Virus record (IMG/VR): IMGVR_UViG_3300048924_000253
Location: 1 to 22,656 of that record
Reading direction: 5' to 3' (one strand)
Origin: a virus
Length of the DNA: 22,656 nt
Numbering within the stretch: the first letter of the stretch is position 1; each line of letters starts with the position of its first letter. This document shows, in pieces, positions 5,938 through 15,998 of this stretch. Below the pieces are notes generated by a model that worked only from the letters and a program-made list of their open reading frames with translations, was not told where the DNA came from and did no database searches. Position numbers and translations under genes: made by a program.

Positions 5938-8900
5938 TCAGTATCCTTTTGCGATGTAGTCAATCGAGCGGCCCGACTGGGCTACTCCGCTGGAATTGCG
6001 GATGAACACAGTGAATCCGGCTGCGCTCTTGCCTGAAACGTCGAGCCAGTCACCAGGCGACAACCCTTGCGCCGTCAGGCTGATAGCTGGAGGCGCGGCG
6101 AACGGTGGTGAATAGCTGACAACCAGGCCTCCAGCAGGCACGGCCAGGTCATTACCGCTATCGATGCGATCAGGCATGTCGATCACGACCTCAAGCTTGG
6201 AGACGTCGATCCAGTGGGTGGACTGCTGTACGGACCCACGCAGCTCAAAATCGAACTGGCGAGCTCGATAGTCGCCAACCACAAAAGGCTTCCAGGCCGA
6301 CCACACTGCAGGTGAAATGTCCGATGTGCGCACCCACAGCGACAGCGATGCGCCGTTGGGCGGGTCACCATCAATGCTGGTCAACGAATCGAAATCCAGC
6401 ACCGGGTCGATGTAGGTGCCGTCGTCGTAGAGCGCAGCCTCCATATCAGCGGTCAGCCGGCAGTCATAGACGTGGCCAAGGTCAGCCGGTGCAGCAAAGC
6501 GATAGAACGCGGACAGCCGAGAGCCACCGAACTTATCGACTTCTGAGACAAGGGCATCAATGTCCGTCACATCGTCCAGAAGTCCGGCGCCGGAGAGCTT
6601 AAGCAACCCGTTGGTGGCTACTGCATTGACTGCTGCCCCTGTGAAATCAGGCGACTCGGTAATGGTCAGCATCACGTTGGCCGGCAGAGGCACCTGAGCA
6701 TCTGACCAGACCTCGGTGATAGGACCGCCAACGCCCGACGAATCGACGGCTCTTGCCAGGTACTTGCCCGGCAGCAACGCCACCACTGACGACGTAGAGC
6801 GCCCCGCCACCTCGATCAGGGGCAAAGCAGCCTCCCAGGTTGCAGCGGTGTTGCGCGCATGACGAATTTCGATGCTGCCGCCAAGCTTCACGTCCAACTC
6901 CGGAACGGGGTCCCACGCCAGGGTTGCTACGCTATTGATGACGTCGAGCCTCAGCCCAGCCAGAGCCGATGGAGGCGCCAGCAGTGCCTGAGCCGTATAG
7001 GTCTGAATGGAAGCCGCACCGGAAAGGCCAAGGGCCGATTTCGACGTCACGCGAACCGACCACAGGCCCGATGATGCAGAGTCGAAGTCGATGCTGGGCG
7101 TCGACACTTCACCGACATACTCCCAGTTGCCACCCGGCCTCATTACCTCGATCTGATAGCGCATCGCCCGCGCCGGTTGCGTCCAGCTGACCGATAGTCG
7201 TGCGGCAGCCATACCGGTTCCGGTGTCATAGAGCGATTCGAAGAATGTCAGCTGACCGACTGCATCTGGCTTGGCCAGGTTGACGATACTGGTCGGGTTG
7301 TCGACGTCCGGGGTGCCGTACTCGACCTGGTTGAACTTGTCCGAGTCATACGCCACGGCGCTGATCGCATAGGTGCCGTCATCGCCTTCGCTGATGCTCA
7401 CGACGCGGAATTTCTGCGCATCCAGCGCGGCTGTTGAGAACACCCATGGCGCAGAGGCCAGGGGCGCAGAGGCCAGCGGTGGCGATACGTTGATCTGTGT
7501 CGCGCCGACCGTCACCGTGACATTCGCGCTGGCATAGCTGCCATCACTCATGATCATGCCAACCACACCATCGCCCGCCACGCCGATGGGGGCATCCAGT
7601 AGCAGTGTGGAGGCTGTGCTCCCCGCCAGCAGTCGCCCACCATTGCGTGCGCCAGCCCGATTGGCATCAGCGACTTGGATGATGTCGCCCGGCAGAGGCA
7701 GCGCACCGTCAGCACCGACGGCGAAGGTCACGGCCTCCGATTCGGCATACAACAGCCAGCGCCCAAGGCGTCGTGCCTGTCCACGCGAAGTGCAGCCGAT
7801 AGCGACGACGTCGCTCTGCTGAATCCTCCCCCACTTCGCAATCAGCTCAGGCCGCTCAACAATCTCGACCGACTGCTTATATTGCTGACTCGGGTCGTTC
7901 CAAGTGACAGCAGCGACGTTATAGCGCTGATCCGATGCGACCGACTGATAGCTGAAGTCGCCACCAACCACGTTGGCATTGTTGAACAGGTATCGACTGG
8001 AGCGCGGCGCGTCCTGCACAGCGGTCAGCGTCCCGCCCGCCCAGAAGCAAATAGCACGGAACACGGAAACCATATCGTTTACCAGCTTCCAGGCGTCCTG
8101 CTGAGTCGTCAGCGCGAGGTTGCAGGTAAAGCGCGGCTCCCAGCCGCCGTAACCGTTTGGAACCATCGCATCGCAATACTGGGCGATGTTGTACAGCGAC
8201 CACTTATCGACCAGCGCCGTTTCGAGCAATCCCCCCAACCCATAGCGGGTATTGGTCAGCATGTCATACCAGACCCAGGCCGGATTATCAGACCATGCAC
8301 GCTTAAACGAGCCGTTCCATGATGCGCTGTACGTGCGCGTTGCTGGGTCGTAGTTGCTTGGAACCAGAACCTTTAGGCCGCGCACCATGAAGGACATTCG
8401 CGGAATGCTGGAGAACTGCTGAGCATCAATGCTGACGCCGCACAGCGCGGTGTTCGGATAGCGCAGCTTTTCATCCCATAGAAGCGTAAACGAGTCGAAA
8501 AAAGTGCGGTTCTGAACCGTAGAGCTTGTCGAATCGCCCCCCATTCGGGTTGCGCGGATATAGCGCGGCAGGCCGCCAGATACCGGCAAACGCAGATAGT
8601 ACGAAAACTGCGTGCGGCTCATGGTTTTGCCATTGATCAAAATGTCTTCGCACATCTGATACCACGCGCCGCTACCAAGCTTGGCCTCCAGGCGGAAGAG
8701 CGCAGAAGATCCGCCCGTGTCGCCGTTTTGCGTGTTCTGCGAGTACAGCTGCGGAACACTGACAGTCACGCGGACTGCATCCGCATCGGTGTCAGTAATG
8801 GCGCGCTCAATGGCAATCCATGCCTTCAGCTCGACGCCGACGGACTGTTCGGCCTCAAGTCCGGTAATCGGCATATAGCCCTGCCACTGGGTGCCGGTGC

Positions 8901-9153
8901 GCTTATCGATGCTGACGCTGGAAAAGTTGTAACTGCCGTCGGAGTTCTGCAGTGGTACATCGTCGAAGAAGATCCCCTGATCGCCGCCGACGATGCCTTC
9001 TATCTCCCCCTCGCAGATAGCATGCAGCACCCGCACATGCTGACGCGAACGCAGGCTGTCCGGCGCTTCAACGGCGGCGCGCACGGAGCTGCCTCCGCTA
9101 CTGCTTCCGCCACCCTTTCCGCCACCCTTTCTACCGACAATTACTTCGCTCAT
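5938..9153 (-). CDS. J: Lambda J-like central tail tip (host specificity) protein
   Basis: A 1071-residue protein forming the central tip of the siphovirus tail; in lambda, J also binds the receptor. The N-terminus has a glycine/lysine/serine linker (KGGGKGGGSSSGG), then the conserved J start DSLRSRQHVRVLHAICEGEIEG region. Further conserved segments include NPAWVWYDMLTNTRYGLG and FWAGGTLTAVQDAP. Fibronectin-III-like repeats follow around residues 600-800. The C-terminal 60 residues form a small beta domain ending SIDYIAKGY, resembling lectin-like ends of J proteins that work with a separate fibre. The start overlaps the I stop by ATGA. Confidence 0.95.
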   Translation of the reverse strand: MSEVIVGRKGGGKGGGSSSGGSSVRAAVEAPDSLRSRQHVRVLHAICEGEIEGIVGGDQGIFFDDVPLQNSDGSYNFSSVSIDKRTGTQWQGYMPITGLEAEQSVGVELKAWIAIERAITDTDADAVRVTVSVPQLYSQNTQNGDTGGSSALFRLEAKLGSGAWYQMCEDILINGKTMSRTQFSYYLRLPVSGGLPRYIRATRMGGDSTSSTVQNRTFFDSFTLLWDEKLRYPNTALCGVSIDAQQFSSIPRMSFMVRGLKVLVPSNYDPATRTYSASWNGSFKRAWSDNPAWVWYDMLTNTRYGLGGLLETALVDKWSLYNIAQYCDAMVPNGYGGWEPRFTCNLALTTQQDAWKLVNDMVSVFRAICFWAGGTLTAVQDAPRSSRYLFNNANVVGGDFSYQSVASDQRYNVAAVTWNDPSQQYKQSVEIVERPELIAKWGRIQQSDVVAIGCTSRGQARRLGRWLLYAESEAVTFAVGADGALPLPGDIIQVADANRAGARNGGRLLAGSTASTLLLDAPIGVAGDGVVGMIMSDGSYASANVTVTVGATQINVSPPLASAPLASAPWVFSTAALDAQKFRVVSISEGDDGTYAISAVAYDSDKFNQVEYGTPDVDNPTSIVNLAKPDAVGQLTFFESLYDTGTGMAAARLSVSWTQPARAMRYQIEVMRPGGNWEYVGEVSTPSIDFDSASSGLWSVRVTSKSALGLSGAASIQTYTAQALLAPPSALAGLRLDVINSVATLAWDPVPELDVKLGGSIEIRHARNTAATWEAALPLIEVAGRSTSSVVALLPGKYLARAVDSSGVGGPITEVWSDAQVPLPANVMLTITESPDFTGAAVNAVATNGLLKLSGAGLLDDVTDIDALVSEVDKFGGSRLSAFYRFAAPADLGHVYDCRLTADMEAALYDDGTYIDPVLDFDSLTSIDGDPPNGASLSLWVRTSDISPAVWSAWKPFVVGDYRARQFDFELRGSVQQSTHWIDVSKLEVVIDMPDRIDSGNDLAVPAGGLVVSYSPPFAAPPAISLTAQGLSPGDWLDVSGKSAAGFTVFIRNSSGVAQSGRSIDYIAKGY
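7448..7477. repeat. 15-bp tandem duplication inside J
   Basis: GGCGCAGAGGCCAG occurs twice in tandem (7448-7461, 7463-7476) with a 15-bp period. It encodes a duplicated five-residue unit (PLASAPLASAP) in the J protein and keeps the frame. It is a possible site of slipped-strand length variation. Confidence 0.7.
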
Positions 9154-9779
9154 ACCGGTAGAGCCTCCGACCAGGTGCCGACTGTAATGACGCTGGAGCC
9201 GACTAGCATCTGGCCGTAAACAACAGGCACAGGGAGCCCCTGCTGCGTCGAGTTGAACGCACCATTAAACAGATAGCTGGGTTTGTTCTCGGTGCTGGCC
9301 TGCTCTTGCTGACTCCCCGCCTTCGATGACGGTGTTGGCGTCAGCATCTGGGCGACGCCACCAAGAGCCATAGCGATACCGACCTGCATCATTGGCGTAC
9401 CAATCCACGCCAAGGAACCGCCGGAGAAGTAGTTGACCGCGGCGCCAACCACGATCAGTGCAACTCCCATTACGGTCTGGAACAAACCGCCATTCTTACT
9501 GCCTGCAATGATGGGAACGATGCGAATTTCTCTCGTTCCGCTCAGGGCGAACTCACCCTCCCCAACATTCTCGCGGTTACGGAAGATGGCGAAGCGTATG
9601 CCCAGGCGCGACAGTCGCATGATCTCGTCCGCAAAACCTTCAACGGTGCTCCTTAGCGCACCGAACACCTCATTGGCGGTGCCATTCTCGAGCAATTTCT
9701 CATGCTTTCTGCCAAATTTCTGAGCCAGGCTGCCGGATAGTTTGATGGTGGTAATTGGCTGATTATTGGAAGCTGACAT
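9150..9779 (-). CDS. I: Lambda I-like tail tip assembly protein
   Basis: A 209-residue tail assembly protein of the lambda I family. The N-terminal half is a ubiquitin-like fold region (TTIKLSGSLAQKFGRKHE and later EIRIVPIIAGSKNGG). A glycine-rich hydrophobic middle follows (about residues 100-145, two possible membrane-like helices). The C-terminal tail contains NGAFNSTQQGLPVPVVYGQM, which is highly characteristic. It sits directly upstream of J with an ATGA overlap, as in lambda. GGAGAAAAGC precedes the ATG. In lambda K and I overlap, but here about 1.5 kb of extra genes separates them. Confidence 0.93.
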   Translation of the reverse strand: MSASNNQPITTIKLSGSLAQKFGRKHEKLLENGTANEVFGALRSTVEGFADEIMRLSRLGIRFAIFRNRENVGEGEFALSGTREIRIVPIIAGSKNGGLFQTVMGVALIVVGAAVNYFSGGSLAWIGTPMMQVGIAMALGGVAQMLTPTPSSKAGSQQEQASTENKPSYLFNGAFNSTQQGLPVPVVYGQMLVGSSVITVGTWSEALPV

Positions 9780-9791
9780 GCTTTTCTCCGG

Positions 9792-9819
9792 GCAATAAAA
9801 AACCGCCCGGAGGCGGTTT
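9792..9819 (-). terminator. Intrinsic terminator after the lipoprotein gene
   Basis: The perfect 8-bp stem AAACCGCC (9800-9807) / GGCGGTTT (9812-9819) has a 4-base loop. On the minus strand it is followed by TTTATTG, giving a strong U tract. It lies 15 bases after the lipoprotein stop and before the I gene. This promoter-gene-terminator style is typical of morons. Late transcripts coming from K must pass it to reach I and J. Confidence 0.85.
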
Positions 9820-9833
9820 GTAAGCTATCTGAG

Positions 9834-10262
9834 TTAAAAAGAACTGGGCCTGATATCCAGCCCTGCCTGTGAGTCGCCGCCGATACGAAATCGCTTGGTC
9901 TGGCTATTTGTCAGACTGACTGATTGCTCTTTGAGCATGTCTGTCCAGCTACACATTCCGCCGCCACTTTTGTCGGCCCCCATGCCAACAAGGTGGTCGC
10001 CGACAGGAACAAAAAAGCTTACTACCTCGCCAGTATCAATTCTCGCTGCAAGTTGCCCATCAACATGGACAGCTAGGAAGCACCCTCCACCCAAGAAGCC
10101 GGTATCGCGTGTTACGAGTATCGTTCCATACGGCACAGCTGGCTTGCTCTGGAGCGATAAAGCACGATCAGCTGGCACTGGCTTCGCTTTATCCGCTGGT
10201 ACTGGCGAAGTAACGCACCCAGCCAGCGCGACCAGCGCCACGGCCGTCAGAATCTTCCGCAT
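9834..10262 (-). CDS. Prophage moron lipoprotein (PEGA/DUF2846-like)
   Basis: A 142-residue lipoprotein with a short signal peptide and an ideal lipobox LAGC (C16). A proline/alanine/lysine-rich linker follows, then a beta-sandwich-like region with the pattern AVHVDGQLAARIDTGEVVSFFVPVGDH, which resembles PEGA/DUF2846 domains. AGGAGG lies 7 bases before the ATG. It interrupts the K-I gene order, has its own terminator and is unrelated to tail assembly. Envelope lipoproteins beside J in other lambdoid phages (Cor and similar) block superinfection by masking the receptor. That role is only an analogy here. Confidence 0.85.
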   Translation of the reverse strand: MRKILTAVALVALAGCVTSPVPADKAKPVPADRALSLQSKPAVPYGTILVTRDTGFLGGGCFLAVHVDGQLAARIDTGEVVSFFVPVGDHLVGMGADKSGGGMCSWTDMLKEQSVSLTNSQTKRFRIGGDSQAGLDIRPSSF

Positions 10263-10388
10263 GTTAAGCCTCCTTGTGTTTTGGCGACTCTAACAGGGCT
10301 TTTGCTCCTGTACGAATCCCCAGTAACGCCCAGCCAGCCTAAAGTAGTAGCTTTCGGCTATCAATCGACCGTTCACAGGGACAAGGAC

Positions 10389-10832
10389 ATGGCGAAGCGG
10401 GTTTCGAAGGCTGAGAAAGAGATGACTGGCTGGCTGTTCATGATCGCGCTCATCGTCGGAGTGCCAATCTATTTGTTCGACAAGATGAACAGATCGATTG
10501 GATGGCAGATCCCCGCCCTGATTCTGGTCGGTATTCTGCTGCTTCTAATCCTCAATAGCAGCCTCAAGAAGCGAGCACGCCTACGCTATCTTCGAGAGAA
10601 ATATCAGGACGAAGATATCGTCCAAAAAATCCTTGCAAAGACAATCTGGATCGGTCAGACACCAGAACAGCTCACCGACTCCCTCGGCTACCCAGCCGCC
10701 ACCGATCACAAGCTTCTGAAAACCAAGACTCGTGATATCTGGAAGTACCGCCATCAGGGTGCTAACAGGTACGGGCTGCGCATCACTGTCGAGAACAACG
10801 CAGTAACAGGTTGGGACTCGAAATCAAACTAA
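10389..10832 (+). CDS. Moron membrane protein with BamE/SmpA-like C-terminal domain
   Basis: A 147-residue protein encoded against the late operon. It has two membrane helices (about residues 14-30 and 39-57), a basic stretch KKRARLRYLR, and a C-terminal region (84-143) with the pattern IGQTPEQLTDSLGYP ... IWKYRHQG ... ITVENNAVTGWD, like BamE/SmpA-type two-helix/three-strand modules. I chose the ATG at 10389, behind AAGGA, over the upstream ATG at 10281. It is divergent from the lipoprotein gene, so promoters should lie in 10263-10388. Expression from the prophage in lysogens is likely; superinfection exclusion or envelope modification is a guess. Its TAA overlaps the next ATG (TAATG). Confidence 0.85.
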   Translation: MAKRVSKAEKEMTGWLFMIALIVGVPIYLFDKMNRSIGWQIPALILVGILLLLILNSSLKKRARLRYLREKYQDEDIVQKILAKTIWIGQTPEQLTDSLGYPAATDHKLLKTKTRDIWKYRHQGANRYGLRITVENNAVTGWDSKSN

Positions 10833-11007
10833 TGCGCGCCCCGCAAAAAGGATTTCCCAGTCCTTATGGAGCTTCCATGGCATCTACCCGAGCAAGGATG
10901 AGGCAGAATCCGAGGCGAGGAGTGCTGGTGATGGCTACATTGCGCGCTACGGACCCCATAAACCAGGGACAGATGACTTCGTCTGGTCTTCCCTAGGCCA
11001 GAACTGA
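10832..11007 (+). pseudogene. Small coupled ORF, apparently frameshifted at an A run
   Basis: ATG 10832 overlaps the previous stop in a TAATG, which suggests translational coupling. After MRAPQK the natural-looking continuation (ISQSLWSFHGIYPSKDEAE ... GYIARYGPHKPGTDDFVW, ending SSLGQN and TGA 11005-11007) is in the -1 frame. That frame has no start codon of its own after the stop at 10804. One more A in the A5 run at 10845-10849 would restore a 58-residue protein. Either a base has been lost, or the run slips during translation. The 3' end overlaps the stop of the convergent - strand gene by 15 bases. Function unknown. Confidence 0.55.
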
Positions 11008-11220
11008 GGCCAGCGTGATTGAGCCGGGGCCTAAGGCGATTTTGGCCTTCAGTCCCGGCCTTCCGGTGTAGCTCCGACGATAGCCTTGACCGCCAGGCCC
11101 AACCTTGCCGCAAAACTTCAAACGGTCGATCTCTGTTTCGCCATCTAGAATGACGACCTCGGACTCGGCTCCGCAGATCACACCACCTAACATGGCGAAT
11201 AAATCCTTGATGGTCAGCAC
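10993..11220 (-). CDS. Small hypothetical protein after K, possibly carrying an amber codon near its start
   Basis: A frame of 66-75 residues with no recognised family: ICGAESEVVILDGETEIDRLKF, then a glycine-rich basic segment (KVGPGGQGYRRSYTGRPG). Possible starts are GTG 11220 without a ribosome binding site, or ATG 11193 with AAGGA about 10 bases upstream. An ATG at 11241 in the same frame has the best site (GGGAG, 6 bases) but is cut by TAG at codon 5 (11227-11229). The original protein was therefore probably about 82 residues. It sits where lambda I would begin. Confidence 0.55.
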   Translation of the reverse strand: MLTIKDLFAMLGGVICGAESEVVILDGETEIDRLKFCGKVGPGGQGYRRSYTGRPGLKAKIALGPGSITLASVLA

Positions 11221-11266
11221 GTAGCGCTAGCTGGTTTGCATGCTCGTCTCCCGCGGCCCTGCCGTA

Positions 11267-11989
11267 TCATGTAGCTGGTTGCGCATCTCTGTGCCTGAGA
11301 ATGTGCGTCGTGCATTCACGGTAGGCGCGGCCGTAGACCTCGCGACAGCTCAGGCGCCCATAGAGGTGGTGCAACAGCACATCACCGTCCAGCCAGATCG
11401 CGCCGTGGCAAGGTGTCGGGCTACTGATCGCCATGATGATCAGATCGCCGCGCTCAGGCGTATCGACGGGGACGAAGCCGGCCTTGGTGAAGTTGTCGAC
11501 GTACAGATTCTCGCCGTTGTGCCACCAGTCGTCCTTGCGGTGGAAGTCCGGCAAAGTGATGCCGAGCACCTGGCGGTAGTAGTCGCGGACCAGGGTATAG
11601 CAGTCGATGACGCCGTGGACGAACACGCGGCCTTCCAGTGGCAGTTCGCCGGCGGCCGGCATCACGTGCCAAGAAGCGGCGCCATCCTGAAGTCCGATAA
11701 TCCACCAAGCCATGCGGCTGACCGCGTGACTGGCGATGTCGTGTAGGCTCGGCTCGGGCCCGGCGTCCGGGTGCGAATGCACGACCGCGACGATGTCGCC
11801 CAGGTCTTCGGCGGCGACATAGTCCTCTGGATGGAGGATGAAGTGATCCGACTCTTCCGACTGGTTTCGGCACGGCACATAGGAGGGCTTGCCGCGCACG
11901 CTGATGACCAGGCCGACAGACTCACGCGGGTACTCTGCGCGAGCATGCGCCTCGGCGTCAGCCCGGCACTTATTGAATACTTCACTCAT
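11267..11989 (-). CDS. K: Lambda K-like tail tip protein with JAMM and NlpC/P60 domains
   Basis: A 240-residue two-domain tail protein. The N-terminal JAB/MPN domain has an intact JAMM metal motif: E23, H71-S-H73, S81 and D84 (HSHPDAGPEPSLHD). The C-terminal NlpC/P60 domain has Cys130 in GVIDCYTLVRDYY and His195 in CHGAIWL. Proteins of this family act in tail tip assembly and may cut peptidoglycan or process tail proteins. The longer frame to 12187 overlaps L and is rejected; ATG 11989 lies 2 bases after the L stop. The order M-L-K is as in lambda. Confidence 0.94.
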   Translation of the reverse strand: MSEVFNKCRADAEAHARAEYPRESVGLVISVRGKPSYVPCRNQSEESDHFILHPEDYVAAEDLGDIVAVVHSHPDAGPEPSLHDIASHAVSRMAWWIIGLQDGAASWHVMPAAGELPLEGRVFVHGVIDCYTLVRDYYRQVLGITLPDFHRKDDWWHNGENLYVDNFTKAGFVPVDTPERGDLIIMAISSPTPCHGAIWLDGDVLLHHLYGRLSCREVYGRAYRECTTHILRHRDAQPAT

Positions 11990-11991
11990 GG

Positions 11992-12684
11992 TCACAACCT
12001 CGGAACGCGGGCAATGCCCGGGAAGCCGCCGAAAGGAAGCTCGCCATTTTCGCCAAAGCGTTTCTTGCAGCCCCTCATGGTCCGACTGCATTGGTCCTTG
12101 GCGGGATCGCTGGTTGGGTTGTCGGCATAGTCGGCCACCGGGCCGCCGCCATAGCCGCACTCTCCCGATCGGTAAGCCCACAGGCAAGTGCCGGCCACCA
12201 CTTGCCGACGCGGAAGCTTGACGCCCTGCAGATCAAGCGGAGAACCAAGCTCGAACTCGATGGCGGCCGGCGTTTCGTTGGCCTTCCGCGTAATGATCCA
12301 GGTTTCGACCGGGTACTCTTCAGCTGGGTTTGCAGTTGGGTTGCCGGCGGAAAAGTTCACCGCATCCAGATATTTGACCAGCGTGCGGCGGCGCTTAAGC
12401 TTGGCACCGAGCAGGTCGTCATACTGCCGACACAGCGCAGAAATGGTCCCGCCGAAGTTGCCGACCTGCAGTTTCGGGCGGGCCGGCGATCCCTGGCTAG
12501 GCGTAGCAAACTCGGTTCCGTTGAGCGGCCAAGGCGTGTAGACGTTCCCCTGCCAAAAAACCGAGCCAAGCGTTTCGTTCACGCCCGCATGAAAGCGAAG
12601 CGTCTGGTCGGTCAGTACCAGTTCGAAGCCTTCCCATATCGACATGCCGTTCGCGAGCGCTAATTGGCCTTGAAGTGCACTCAC
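11992..12684 (-). CDS. L: Lambda L-like tail tip protein, probable Fe-S protein
   Basis: A 230-residue minor tail protein of the lambda L family. The C-terminal part holds four cysteines (167, 176, 199, 206) in TCLWAYRSGECGYGG and DQCSRTMRGCKKRFG. These match the cysteine region that binds an iron-sulfur cluster in lambda gpL (known for lambda, inferred here). The start is GTG at 12684, overlapping the M stop as GTGA, with GAGGAGG 7 bases upstream. It works with M, K, I and J to build the tail tip on which the tape measure and tube assemble. Confidence 0.94.
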   Translation of the reverse strand: MSALQGQLALANGMSIWEGFELVLTDQTLRFHAGVNETLGSVFWQGNVYTPWPLNGTEFATPSQGSPARPKLQVGNFGGTISALCRQYDDLLGAKLKRRRTLVKYLDAVNFSAGNPTANPAEEYPVETWIITRKANETPAAIEFELGSPLDLQGVKLPRRQVVAGTCLWAYRSGECGYGGGPVADYADNPTSDPAKDQCSRTMRGCKKRFGENGELPFGGFPGIARVPRL

Positions 12685-13019: not shown

Positions 13020-15998
13020 TTAGGTGAGTTGCCCGCCGTTACGGCGCGCAGTTGCGATTTCCTGACGGCAGACGACCTTGATAGCTTCTGCCAGGCGTAC
13101 CGGATCGGGTGTTGCGCCGCCTCCATCCGTGGCATCCACGGTGACACTGACATTGACCGTGCTGGAGCTTCCGCCCGCACCGCCACGCACGCCGAGACGA
13201 CCTTGCGAGTCGCGCGCCAGCGGCACAATCGCCTCTGGGCCAGCCTCACCCATCACGCCGGTCTTGCCGTTGGCCATTCCGAACGCGGTCGGCGTGCTGA
13301 CCACGCTGTCGGAGAACGCGCCGCCATTAGCGAACATCTGTACGCCGCCGGACCATGCGCCCCCCTTCGCTTGCGGGAAGTAGGTCGAGGAATAGCCGGC
13401 CTGAGATGCGCCAAGCGAAGTTGACGAGCTGCCACCGAAGTACGAACTAGCTGCAGAAGCAGCCAGGCCGAACAGACCGCTCAGCGCCGAGGAACTGGCC
13501 TGCCGAGTAGCTATGCGAGCCATGTCAGCCAGAATCGACTTGGCAAAGTCACCGAACGACAGCTTCCCGGTAAGGGCGAACTGAGCAGCAGCATCTTCCA
13601 TGGATCTGAACGCATTAGTGAACAGGCTTTTCGTCTGCCCGGCCACGTCGCGCGTCGACTCCAGGTAGTTTTCCCAGGCCGAGGATGCGCCGGCAGTCCA
13701 GCTACCTTGCGCCGACGTCATGTCGTCGTAGTTGGCGACCACCGTGTTGCGCAGGTCCTGCTGGCTCTGTGCGACAGCCTTGAGCTTGGCGTTGTACTCA
13801 TCGAGGCTCATGCCGCGCGAGCCGTCGCCGTACTGGTTGGCTAGGTCGATGCGCTGGGCGTTGGCCTTGTCGTCGATGCCGTTTTGCTGCTCCGTCAGCG
13901 ATCTCTGACGATCACCCTGCCCAAGACCAGAGGCCGTACGCAATCCCTGCTGTCGAAGTGTCTCGACCTGTTGCTGGAGAGCGCTGGTGTACGTGTTGAC
14001 CGCCAATGTCTGCTTGCGTAGTCGACCGTCTTCGTTGGTGGCAATGATCGACAGTTCGCTGTCACTGTCCTGCTGCGCTTTGACCATGGCGCTGCGGGCG
14101 TCGGCGATTTTCTGATCGATCTGGATGACCTGCGCCGCAGTCGTCCCTTTCTTGGTTTTGGCCGCTTCGAGCGCGTCAATTTCTGACTGATAGCTCTGAG
14201 CGACTTCGGTAGCTTCCTGCTGCAGCAAGCTGACGCGCTGCTCGGTATAACTGGCCTGAGAGATAACGCCGGCACGCTGTGATGCCTCAAGCTCTTTTTC
14301 CGCGTTTTTGTAGTAGGCCAACGTTTCGGCCAGTACGTTCTTCGCGTTGTTGAAGCTGGTCAGGTCAACGCTGCCCGCAGCACCCTTCGGATCCTTGAAC
14401 TTATCGTTGATGTTTGCCAGGTTCTTGTCGACGACTGACTGATCAAGACGCTTGTCTTTGGGGTCCGCCTTACGGATATCGTCGAGTTGCCGGCGATATT
14501 CCTTCAGCGCATCTGCGCGTTTTTGCTCATTTGTCCAAGACGACTTGGTAAGTGCGTCGACCTTTGCCATCGCGACAACGGCGTCTTTCTGGACCTTTGC
14601 CTGCTCACCCTCATACTTTGCAATATCAGCTTCAGCGGCCTTCTGGTCCTCCAGCATGTTGAGACGATTGCCGTAGAAATCGATCATCTCCTGCTTGTTT
14701 TGGAACACCCCCACATCACCAGACTGAGCCCGGGCAAGGTCACGCTGAGCCTGTTCGATATCGGAGCCAATGTTGCTGCGACCAATATTTTTCAGGTTGT
14801 CGGCCGCGCGTGCGACAGCGTTGTAACCCTTCTCCCAGAAGCTCAGGTTTTCGAGGATTCTCGGTGTGCGCTCGTTGATGGCGTCCGCGTATTGCTCGGT
14901 CGCCAGCTTCACAGCACCTGCGTGGTCGCCCTGCTCTTCCAAGGCAGCTATCTGCGAATAAACCGAAGCAGTTAGGTAGTGATATTGCTCATTCAGCGCG
15001 GCAGACGCCTTCACTGGCTCGTCTGCTAGCTTGGAAAACTCGGCAACAGTTTCGCTGACGGCTTTGCCGGTAGCCTCCTGCATGGAGACTGCAGCCCTGG
15101 TGATGTCGCCAAAGCTTTCGCCGGCGATCTTGCCATTACCAGCCAGTAATGCGAGGACTTCTGCCGCTTGACCGGTTGTGCCAACAGTCGCACTGACTTG
15201 TCGTGCCAGTTCGCCCATTTGCCCAGCACTGACGCCGGCGAAATTCCCGGTCAGTACCAGTGATTTGTTGTAAGCGTCCTGCTCTTCGCTGCCCTTGTAG
15301 TAGGAAACCCCGAGCGCGGCAACTGCGGCCGTTACCAGCGCGATAGGTGCGAGAACGGCCAGTAGGCTGGCAGCGGAAGCCCCGGCGCCGGCGCCAAGCT
15401 GAGCGACAGCCCGAACTCCGCTCCCCCAATCCCCTGAAGACAGTGCATTGCCTAACTGGACAACGTTTTCCTGGGCCTGACGGGTACCGAGACGAAGTTT
15501 GTCGAACCCAGTGGCGGTTTTTTCGAGTTTGGCGTAATCCTTGTCGATTTTGCTCAGTGACGAATTGTACTGGTCTTGACTGATGCGACCGGCATCGAGG
15601 TGCTTACCCAGTTGCTCAACCTGAGTGTCCAGCTTGGACATTGCCGCCTTGGCCGGATCGATCGCGCCGAGCAGGCTGTTCAGCGCCTTCTGCTCATCCA
15701 GGGTCGACTTGGCCAAGGCCAACTGCTGCTTATCGAGCTGCGCGGTGATCTTGGTAAATTCTGCCTCGCCATAAGCGCCGGTCTGGGTCAGCTTCGCCAG
15801 GCTGTCACGTTGCTTGGCCAGCTCCTGCGTGGTGGTCGCGCCTTTCGACAGCGACTTCTCCAGCGCCTCCATCTCTTTCATCAGGCCGACGGCAGATTGC
15901 TCTGCCCGCTCACCGGACTTTGTCAGCTTGTCGAGATCGGTCGCAGCCTGGGCAGCATCAGCCGAGTCGACCTTAATGCCGAGTTCTGCAATGTTCAT
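13020..15998 (-). CDS. Tail tape measure protein, lambda family
   Basis: A 992-residue protein that sets tail length and is injected with the DNA. The N-terminal 180 residues are coiled coil (repeated TDLDKLTKSGER, LEKSLSKG, LDEQKALNSL). A hydrophobic, membrane-like segment lies near residues 200-235 (SLLAVLAPIALVTAAVAALG). Long helical repeats follow. The C-terminal region carries the lambda tape-measure signature (FTNAFRSMEDAAAQFALTG, then FGDFAKSILADMARIATRQ), and a glycine/serine-rich end with GPEAIVPLARDSQGR. AAGGTGA precedes the ATG. It is the longest gene after J, and its length predicts a tail of siphovirus size. Confidence 0.95.
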   Translation of the reverse strand: MNIAELGIKVDSADAAQAATDLDKLTKSGERAEQSAVGLMKEMEALEKSLSKGATTTQELAKQRDSLAKLTQTGAYGEAEFTKITAQLDKQQLALAKSTLDEQKALNSLLGAIDPAKAAMSKLDTQVEQLGKHLDAGRISQDQYNSSLSKIDKDYAKLEKTATGFDKLRLGTRQAQENVVQLGNALSSGDWGSGVRAVAQLGAGAGASAASLLAVLAPIALVTAAVAALGVSYYKGSEEQDAYNKSLVLTGNFAGVSAGQMGELARQVSATVGTTGQAAEVLALLAGNGKIAGESFGDITRAAVSMQEATGKAVSETVAEFSKLADEPVKASAALNEQYHYLTASVYSQIAALEEQGDHAGAVKLATEQYADAINERTPRILENLSFWEKGYNAVARAADNLKNIGRSNIGSDIEQAQRDLARAQSGDVGVFQNKQEMIDFYGNRLNMLEDQKAAEADIAKYEGEQAKVQKDAVVAMAKVDALTKSSWTNEQKRADALKEYRRQLDDIRKADPKDKRLDQSVVDKNLANINDKFKDPKGAAGSVDLTSFNNAKNVLAETLAYYKNAEKELEASQRAGVISQASYTEQRVSLLQQEATEVAQSYQSEIDALEAAKTKKGTTAAQVIQIDQKIADARSAMVKAQQDSDSELSIIATNEDGRLRKQTLAVNTYTSALQQQVETLRQQGLRTASGLGQGDRQRSLTEQQNGIDDKANAQRIDLANQYGDGSRGMSLDEYNAKLKAVAQSQQDLRNTVVANYDDMTSAQGSWTAGASSAWENYLESTRDVAGQTKSLFTNAFRSMEDAAAQFALTGKLSFGDFAKSILADMARIATRQASSSALSGLFGLAASAASSYFGGSSSTSLGASQAGYSSTYFPQAKGGAWSGGVQMFANGGAFSDSVVSTPTAFGMANGKTGVMGEAGPEAIVPLARDSQGRLGVRGGAGGSSSTVNVSVTVDATDGGGATPDPVRLAEAIKVVCRQEIATARRNGGQLT

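Follow-up and report, generated by a model that had tools for sequence, protein, structure and literature searches.

The window analyzed here is the whole stretch of 22,656 nucleotides, a 22.7-kb virus record from a Pseudomonas phage in which the tail operon lies on the minus strand in the order H, M, L, K and, beyond an insert, I and J. Gene K ends at 11267 and gene I starts at 9779, so that about 1.49 kb separates the two genes. An insertion between K and I had been proposed in a sequence-only reading of this DNA, and it does exist: the two genes overlap by 4 bp in 9 of 87 related loci, which means that an uninterrupted K-I state exists among relatives. The features of the region are listed below from K toward J.

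11267-11989, minus strand: gene K, with JAB (Prok-JAB) and NlpC/P60 domains (Pfam, 2e-13 for each domain; phrog_30), the left border of the insert
10993-11220, minus strand: 75-aa gene (p75) in tail-operon orientation (phrog_38193, 2.4e-27; 53% identical in phages D14H and R656)
10807-11008, plus strand: small frame homologous to phrog_4280 (7.9e-14), convergent with the 75-aa gene
10389-10832, plus strand: gene for a 147-aa membrane protein (mem), opposed to the tail operon (84% identical in contigs L010-L012, at the same junction)
10287-10295, minus strand: extended -10 promoter-like element TGTTAGAGT, 24 nt upstream of the lipoprotein start, of a motif class common before such genes
9834-10262, minus strand: lipoprotein gene, 142 aa, with signal peptide MRKILTAVALVALAGC and lipobox LAGC (phrog_890, 1.7e-40)
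10215-10262, minus strand: signal-peptide codons to the lipobox cysteine, left joint of the exchanged block (segment identity and junction alignments)
9800-9819, minus strand: predicted intrinsic terminator with a C(UCCG)G loop and 8 pairs, 5 of them GC, at the end of the lipoprotein unit (from the sequence and its recurrence in relatives)
9786-9812, minus strand: alternative 11-bp hairpin (minimum free energy fold) that would bury the gene I ribosome-binding site in read-through RNA
9786-9789, minus strand: gene I ribosome-binding site GGAG, directly behind the terminator (from the sequence; spacing conserved in relatives)
9150-9779, minus strand: gene I (phrog_32, 1e-55)
9360-9779, minus strand: gene I codons 1-140, exchanged in relatives along with the mature lipoprotein (identity by segment)
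9150-9359, minus strand: gene I codons 141-209 and stop, conserved alongside J (identity by segment)
5938-9153, minus strand: gene J, 3' of the terminator and in need of read-through (open reading frame; J homology in relatives)

The lipoprotein matches the phrog_890 profile over its full length (positions 1-136 of 136) and carries a signal peptide with a lipobox, which is also present in the family alignment. Together with the hairpin at 9800-9819, this upholds the earlier claim of a minus-strand lipoprotein with its own terminator, and the proposed direction to the envelope is supported for its product. The promoter-like element on the other side of the gene had been overlooked, as had the 75-aa gene. 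As a promoter-like element and a terminator flank the gene, it is likely to be an autonomous transcription unit, in agreement with the suggested moron insertion with transcription signals of its own. We infer with fair confidence from these signals that the lipoprotein is expressed in lysogens; promoter, gene and terminator would form one unit that is probably on in the lysogen while the late operon is off.

A structure model of the lipoprotein (pLDDT 85, 23 sequences) depicts a small beta-sandwich, and cysteines 61 and 104 are conserved in the family alignment. The best structure matches were to unrelated beta-sandwiches (VIA-align Z 8.0 over 92 residues; Foldseek E 3.5e-4), and the modeled fold is read only as a common beta-sandwich with generic matches. 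No Asp follows the lipobox cysteine, and by the sorting rules that we take to apply here the protein is predicted to reside in the outer membrane, facing the periplasm. From there it would exclude superinfecting phages at an entry step. We hold exclusion with moderate confidence, by analogy: unrelated phage lipoproteins exclude phages, and Vibrio phage Cla has a family member immediately behind its repressor gene and in the same orientation (1 of 25 matched Vibrio records examined). A further member lies between K and I in coliphage mEp390. PADLOC defence annotation yielded no match for four insert proteins.

The plus-strand gene at 10389-10832 is coding, as its identity in three other contigs at the same junction indicates. 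It had been described as BamE-like, and no BamE or SmpA_OmlA profile match was found in Pfam or NCBIfam up to E=1; the AlphaFold model of its product is poor (pLDDT 55). Relatives of this protein occur at four more loci (L099-L102; one Comamonas, two Pseudomonas and one Acidobacteria MAG), where tblastn with 18 window proteins as queries detected no tail gene. The small ORF said to be coupled to the membrane gene did not hold up: the ATG overlapping the mem stop opens a different frame without homologues, and the phrog_4280-homologous frame has no ATG, GTG or TTG between the preceding stop and the match. In tblastn searches, the small gene lies tail-to-tail with the 75-aa gene in 7/7 related loci that have it and is present in 0/7 loci with a mem homologue. 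These parts occur separately in relatives, and the idea of one cassette that works as a whole is not supported; mem and the p75/small pair would instead be passengers of the site. Intact relatives of the phrog_4280-type frame are present in other loci, and in one (L087, 3621-4014) the convergent pair follows gene I rather than lying between K and I.

Relatives were gathered from IMG/VR by gpI similarity (80 loci) and by similarity to the membrane protein (4 loci), and phage records were gathered by lipoprotein, p75 and terminator. Both K and I were present in 87 loci, 78 of them non-redundant (the window and 77 others). The K-I gap exceeds 40 bp in 71 of these 78 (median 1386 bp, maximum 4467 bp), in counts that refer to sequences picked by gpI similarity and not to independent events. 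An intrinsic terminator lies at most 90 nt before I in 69/71 gapped loci, whereas none of the 7 loci with a narrower gap has one and K or L is preceded by one in 3/144 cases; taken singly, the window terminator is within chance (5 terminator-like sites in 8800-12400 versus 3.2 expected). The last gene before I and its terminator is an operon-oriented lipoprotein in 61/71 gapped loci, the other 10 having no such lipoprotein, and two families alternate at this position, phrog_890 (the window's) and phrog_914. Among the 58 lipoprotein genes examined (the 61 less three with an unparsed signal peptide), 41 have an extended -10 element (TGnTAnnnT) ending 15-38 nt before the start, compared with 0 of 144 K or L starts and a mean of 0.8 (maximum 4) in 200 rounds of shuffling. 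The K-I junction is a hot spot with a fixed right end. In several loci among L014-L093 the called J start lies 400-940 nt after I, and further insertions are possible there.

It is very improbable that the insert is a decaying, functionless remnant. The small plus-strand frame without a standard start would fit decay, but divergent contigs show protein-level conservation of the lipoprotein, the membrane gene and the 75-aa gene, and promoter and terminator are retained. Lambdoid morons of the HK97/HK022 type are independent promoter-gene-terminator insertions. Like them, the lipoprotein unit is an extra gene within the tail operon, with a promoter and a terminator recognized at the sequence level, and it is missing from the same place in close relatives. 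Unlike them, a single K-I site is filled in most relatives examined, the lipoprotein comes last, the terminator is joined to the gene I ribosome-binding site, and mature domains are swapped at the signal peptide along with part of gene I.

The sequence-only reading had also held that late RNA must pass the terminator at 9800-9819 to reach I and J, by antitermination or by means of an extra promoter. Read-through stands, whereas an extra promoter does not, as the terminator ends approximately 20 nt before I, too close for one to fit, an arrangement shared by 69/71 gapped loci. With fair confidence, late read-through would be needed to reach I and J, and late transcription of these genes would presumably be antiterminated; the conserved terminator before gene I makes such read-through look obligatory in these Pseudomonas phages. 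In read-through RNA from the window, the minimum free energy fold is the 11-bp hairpin that hides the ribosome-binding site instead of the terminator hairpin (z -3.6 to -3.9), and the unpaired probability of the site is 0.002, compared with 0.54 in controls. This would suit a double lock, in which the terminator is also an anti-RBS hairpin that blocks gene I translation from leaky read-through in the lysogen, but we consider such a lock improbable, because the burial is not general (mean 0.47 in 26 downstream gene families versus 0.46 in controls, p=.57) and would also impede late translation of gene I. The terminator was likewise rejected as a general RNA switch, as accessibility at the family level equals that of controls and other loop sequences lack the pairing, making the fold a peculiarity of the window. 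Own and swapped terminator/RBS duplexes differed (0/500), a comparison confounded by relatedness. A 41-bp element comprising terminator and ribosome-binding site (9780-9820) has short matches at 92-95% identity in Pseudomonas phages that are unrelated elsewhere, and those in PS-1 and R656 lie by the tape-measure gene.

Three contig pairs, drawn from 16 pairs examined, reveal the left border of an exchange between lipoproteins. In L010/L011, L043/L047 and L034/L078, the 300 nt preceding the lipoprotein gene are 90-100% identical and its signal-peptide codons 79-90%, with the mature part at 43-47% in nucleotides (shuffled baseline 46%) and 13-18% as protein. A weaker joint is seen between the window and L018 and L021, where the last 50 nt before the start are 76-78% identical, the signal peptide 79-88%, the first 90 nt of the mature part 47-48%, and the stretch from the lipoprotein stop to the I start 77-80%. 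Two unrelated mature lipoprotein domains thus have one signal-peptide joint in common, and the exchanged block extends from the lipobox to about gpI residue 140, while K, J and the end of gpI stay.

The choice of lipoprotein family goes with gpI. Of the 28 loci in which both J and K are complete, 25 have the same lipoprotein family as their nearest neighbour by gpI (shuffle mean 14.6, p=.0015), compared with 17/28 by K (p=.28), 16/28 by J residues 1-400 (p=.42) and 21/28 by J residues 400-750 (p=.034). No association was found between the lipoprotein family and the last 300 residues of J (10/28, p=.97). This last result speaks against receptor blocking of the Cor/Llp kind, in which the lipoprotein would inactivate the receptor that J recognises and would lie beside I by an accident of the hot spot. 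Such a mode has precedents in the accessible portions of the literature, where T5 Llp blocks FhuA and Rtp45 blocks LptD, both from the periplasmic side, and where the lipoproteins of mEpimmI phages exclude by receptor group; for the window we regard it as unlikely, the more so as satellites without J, described below, still bear the lipoprotein with gene I.

A pairwise comparison of 53 loci (365 pairs with K at least 82% identical) located the association within gpI. Mean identity over gpI residues 1-60 was 0.88 for pairs with lipoproteins at least 80% alike, compared with 0.55 for pairs of other type, whereas the last 45 residues of gpI (0.95/0.94), J residues 1-120 (0.80/0.80) and K (0.89/0.89) were unmoved by lipoprotein type. 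In 1000 rounds of permutation within K clusters the gpI value was reached 0 times. The switch point falls at gpI residue 140. As described in the accessible portions of the cryo-EM papers, lambda gpI is a virion protein that forms the tail plug; when the tail opens, the N-terminal domain and a pair of hydrophobic helices are lost from the resolved structure and are proposed to enter the outer membrane, while the protein from residue 167 onward remains with gpJ. A motif, LGGVA, lies at 148-152 in lambda and at 139-143 in the window (mapped by eye from the printed motif), which puts the switch point at the end of the gpI part that is mobile in lambda.

The linkage could also arise by plain hitchhiking, with neighbours swapped between two convenient joints and the lipoprotein serving another envelope role in lysogenic conversion. 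We regard this as a serious possibility, somewhat short of even odds. Of 151 phage pairs whose gpI N-parts are 85% or more alike, none differs in lipoprotein, although the conserved terminator between the two genes offers a ready recombination site, and this counts against hitchhiking. Conversely, similar lipoproteins are found with different gpI: among phage pairs with lipoproteins 80-90% alike, 37/115 have gpI N-parts below 65%, and there are pairs in which the lipoprotein is nearly identical and gpI differs. Strict matching of lipoprotein and gpI types was considered and rejected, as it held in two phage sets and failed at 80-90% lipoprotein identity and in the satellites; the 37 mismatched pairs and the absence of tracking in satellites (below) indicate that the linkage may result from adjacency. 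The window's own clade contains no close pair in support of it: the locus with the best lipoprotein match (L013, 62%) stands at 55% over gpI 1-60, and the one with the best match over gpI 1-60 (L014, 72%) stands at 31% for the lipoprotein.

From 398 Pseudomonas genomes, the 30 best-scoring loci per lipoprotein family were taken, giving 60 loci that are not a random sample. The lipoprotein adjoins a same-strand gene I in 57 of these 60, lying before it in 47 and after it in 10, and 3 have no gene I within the approximately 3.4-kb locus. Of the 42 non-redundant loci with the lipoprotein before I, 38 agree in lipoprotein family with their nearest neighbour by the gpI N-part (shuffle mean 20.9, p=2e-4), compared with 16/42 by the last 65 gpI residues (p=.93). 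Distant relatives of phrog_890 and phrog_914, many with weak scores, are present in 393 and 331 of the 398 genomes, respectively; the phage lipoproteins may derive from host lipoproteins, and a distribution this close to universal makes a housekeeping-type role possible. In E. coli, considered as a further set for replication, 47 of 5426 genomes gave a match, in no case covering more than 80% of the query.

The 10 loci with the lipoprotein after I differ in context: none has K, L, M, J or H in the surrounding 10 kb or so, and 9/10 have a primase/helicase of the phiAH14b type. According to the accessible portions of PMC4936722, phiAH14b is a 16.8-kb satellite that uses phiAH14a capsids. A search with its helicase gave matches in 47/398 Pseudomonas genomes, and the 43 matches with at least 64% identity over nearly the full query were analyzed as P4-like satellites, weaker and partial ones being left out. 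Gene I is present in 21 of these 43, with a lipoprotein directly after it in 17 of the 21 (15 of phrog_890 type, 2 of phrog_914 type), compared with a lipoprotein in 1 of the 22 satellites without gene I (Fisher p=2e-7). K, L, M and J were found in 0/43. Absences in this set are upper bounds, as some satellite stretches end at contig ends. The co-occurrence indicates that lipoprotein and gene I belong together genetically, which does not imply physical contact, and it counts against hitchhiking, the two genes being together in 17/21 satellites that lack K, L, M and J. In these satellites no correlation was seen between lipoprotein similarity and that of the gpI N-part (rho 0.12, p=.12), and a weak one with the C-part, the end that the lipoprotein adjoins (rho 0.30, p=.04), which is what adjacency alone predicts and favors hitchhiking. 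The gpI proteins of phiAH14b and phiAH14a are 97% identical over the last 65 residues and 65% over the preceding part, and a conserved end is expected if satellite gpI must fit the helper's J.

In total, we put a probability of roughly 55% on the reading that the core of the K-I moron site is an independently transcribed superinfection-exclusion lipoprotein genetically coupled to gpI. The lipoprotein is linked to I in either arrangement, directly before I in phages and directly after I in satellites, and the fact that the two travel together in many phages and phage parasites suggests that they are partners. This coupling was absent from the sequence-only reading. That gpI or its pore is the target is speculative; exchange together with the N-terminal two thirds of gpI, combined with the pairing in satellites, would make incoming gpI or its pore a likelier target than the adsorption receptor. 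A search of titles and abstract openings, a coverage that takes in little of the subscription literature, found no published link between a phage lipoprotein and gpI.

The literature used throughout comprises accessible portions of PMC10884400, PMC11893012, PMC11101478, PMC10721106, PMC12685063, PMC10883804, PMC9586334 and PMC4936722. Like T5 Llp, Rtp45, Cor and the Lpp proteins of mEpimmI phages, the window protein is a small phage lipoprotein predicted on the periplasmic side of the outer membrane, and in mEpimmI phages the gene also lies inside the structural gene cluster. Those proteins have about 60-75 aa and are linked to the receptor or the receptor-binding protein, whereas the window lipoprotein, with about 125 residues in its mature form, is modeled as a beta-sandwich, is linked to gpI instead of the J terminus, and has a putative exclusion function; the mEp021 lipoprotein gene encodes 72 aa compared with 142 aa in the window. 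TP-J34 Ltp and HK97 gp15 are prophage envelope proteins for which escape maps to the tape measure and not to a receptor, as described in the portions at hand. They belong to other families, Ltp acting in Gram-positive hosts and gp15 being an inner-membrane protein, and in the present case gpI would be the partner. Tab of P. aeruginosa phage JBD26 is, as the window lipoprotein gene would be, a prophage defence gene in the late operon with its own promoter, but its description places it on the opposite strand, flanked by the terminase genes, and has it act in the cytoplasm against tail assembly, unlike the operon-oriented lipoprotein of the window. The satellite phiAH14b, whose helper is phiAH14a, has gene I followed by a phrog_890 lipoprotein that the authors liken to Cor; in the accessible portions of that paper both genes are noted and joint action is not proposed, whereas here the pair recurs in 17/43 satellites.

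With gpI as the target of the lipoprotein, exclusion in lambda-like phages would take effect at the tail plug, after adsorption, which could explain both exclusion that crosses receptors and the lone tail-tip gene in satellites, and it would provide a handle on the envelope role of the structurally unresolved N-terminal domain of gpI. Extended further, and tentatively enough that we think it unlikely in its full form, lipoprotein and gpI might constitute a two-part module of entry control, in which the resident lipoprotein intercepts the part of gpI pushed through the outer membrane. Satellites might, speculatively, re-plug helper tails with their own gpI, evading the lipoprotein of a helper lysogen, and guard the cell with their own lipoprotein, and exchange of the block would then amount to a receptor-independent turnover of exclusion specificity. 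In four loci (L303, L305, L309 and L316) a tape-measure-like match lies downstream of the AH14b-type helicase; it would be unusual for a satellite to encode a tape measure. The gene table of PMC4936722 places a second, lone gene I near the repressor in the phiAH14a record, at 13998-14579.
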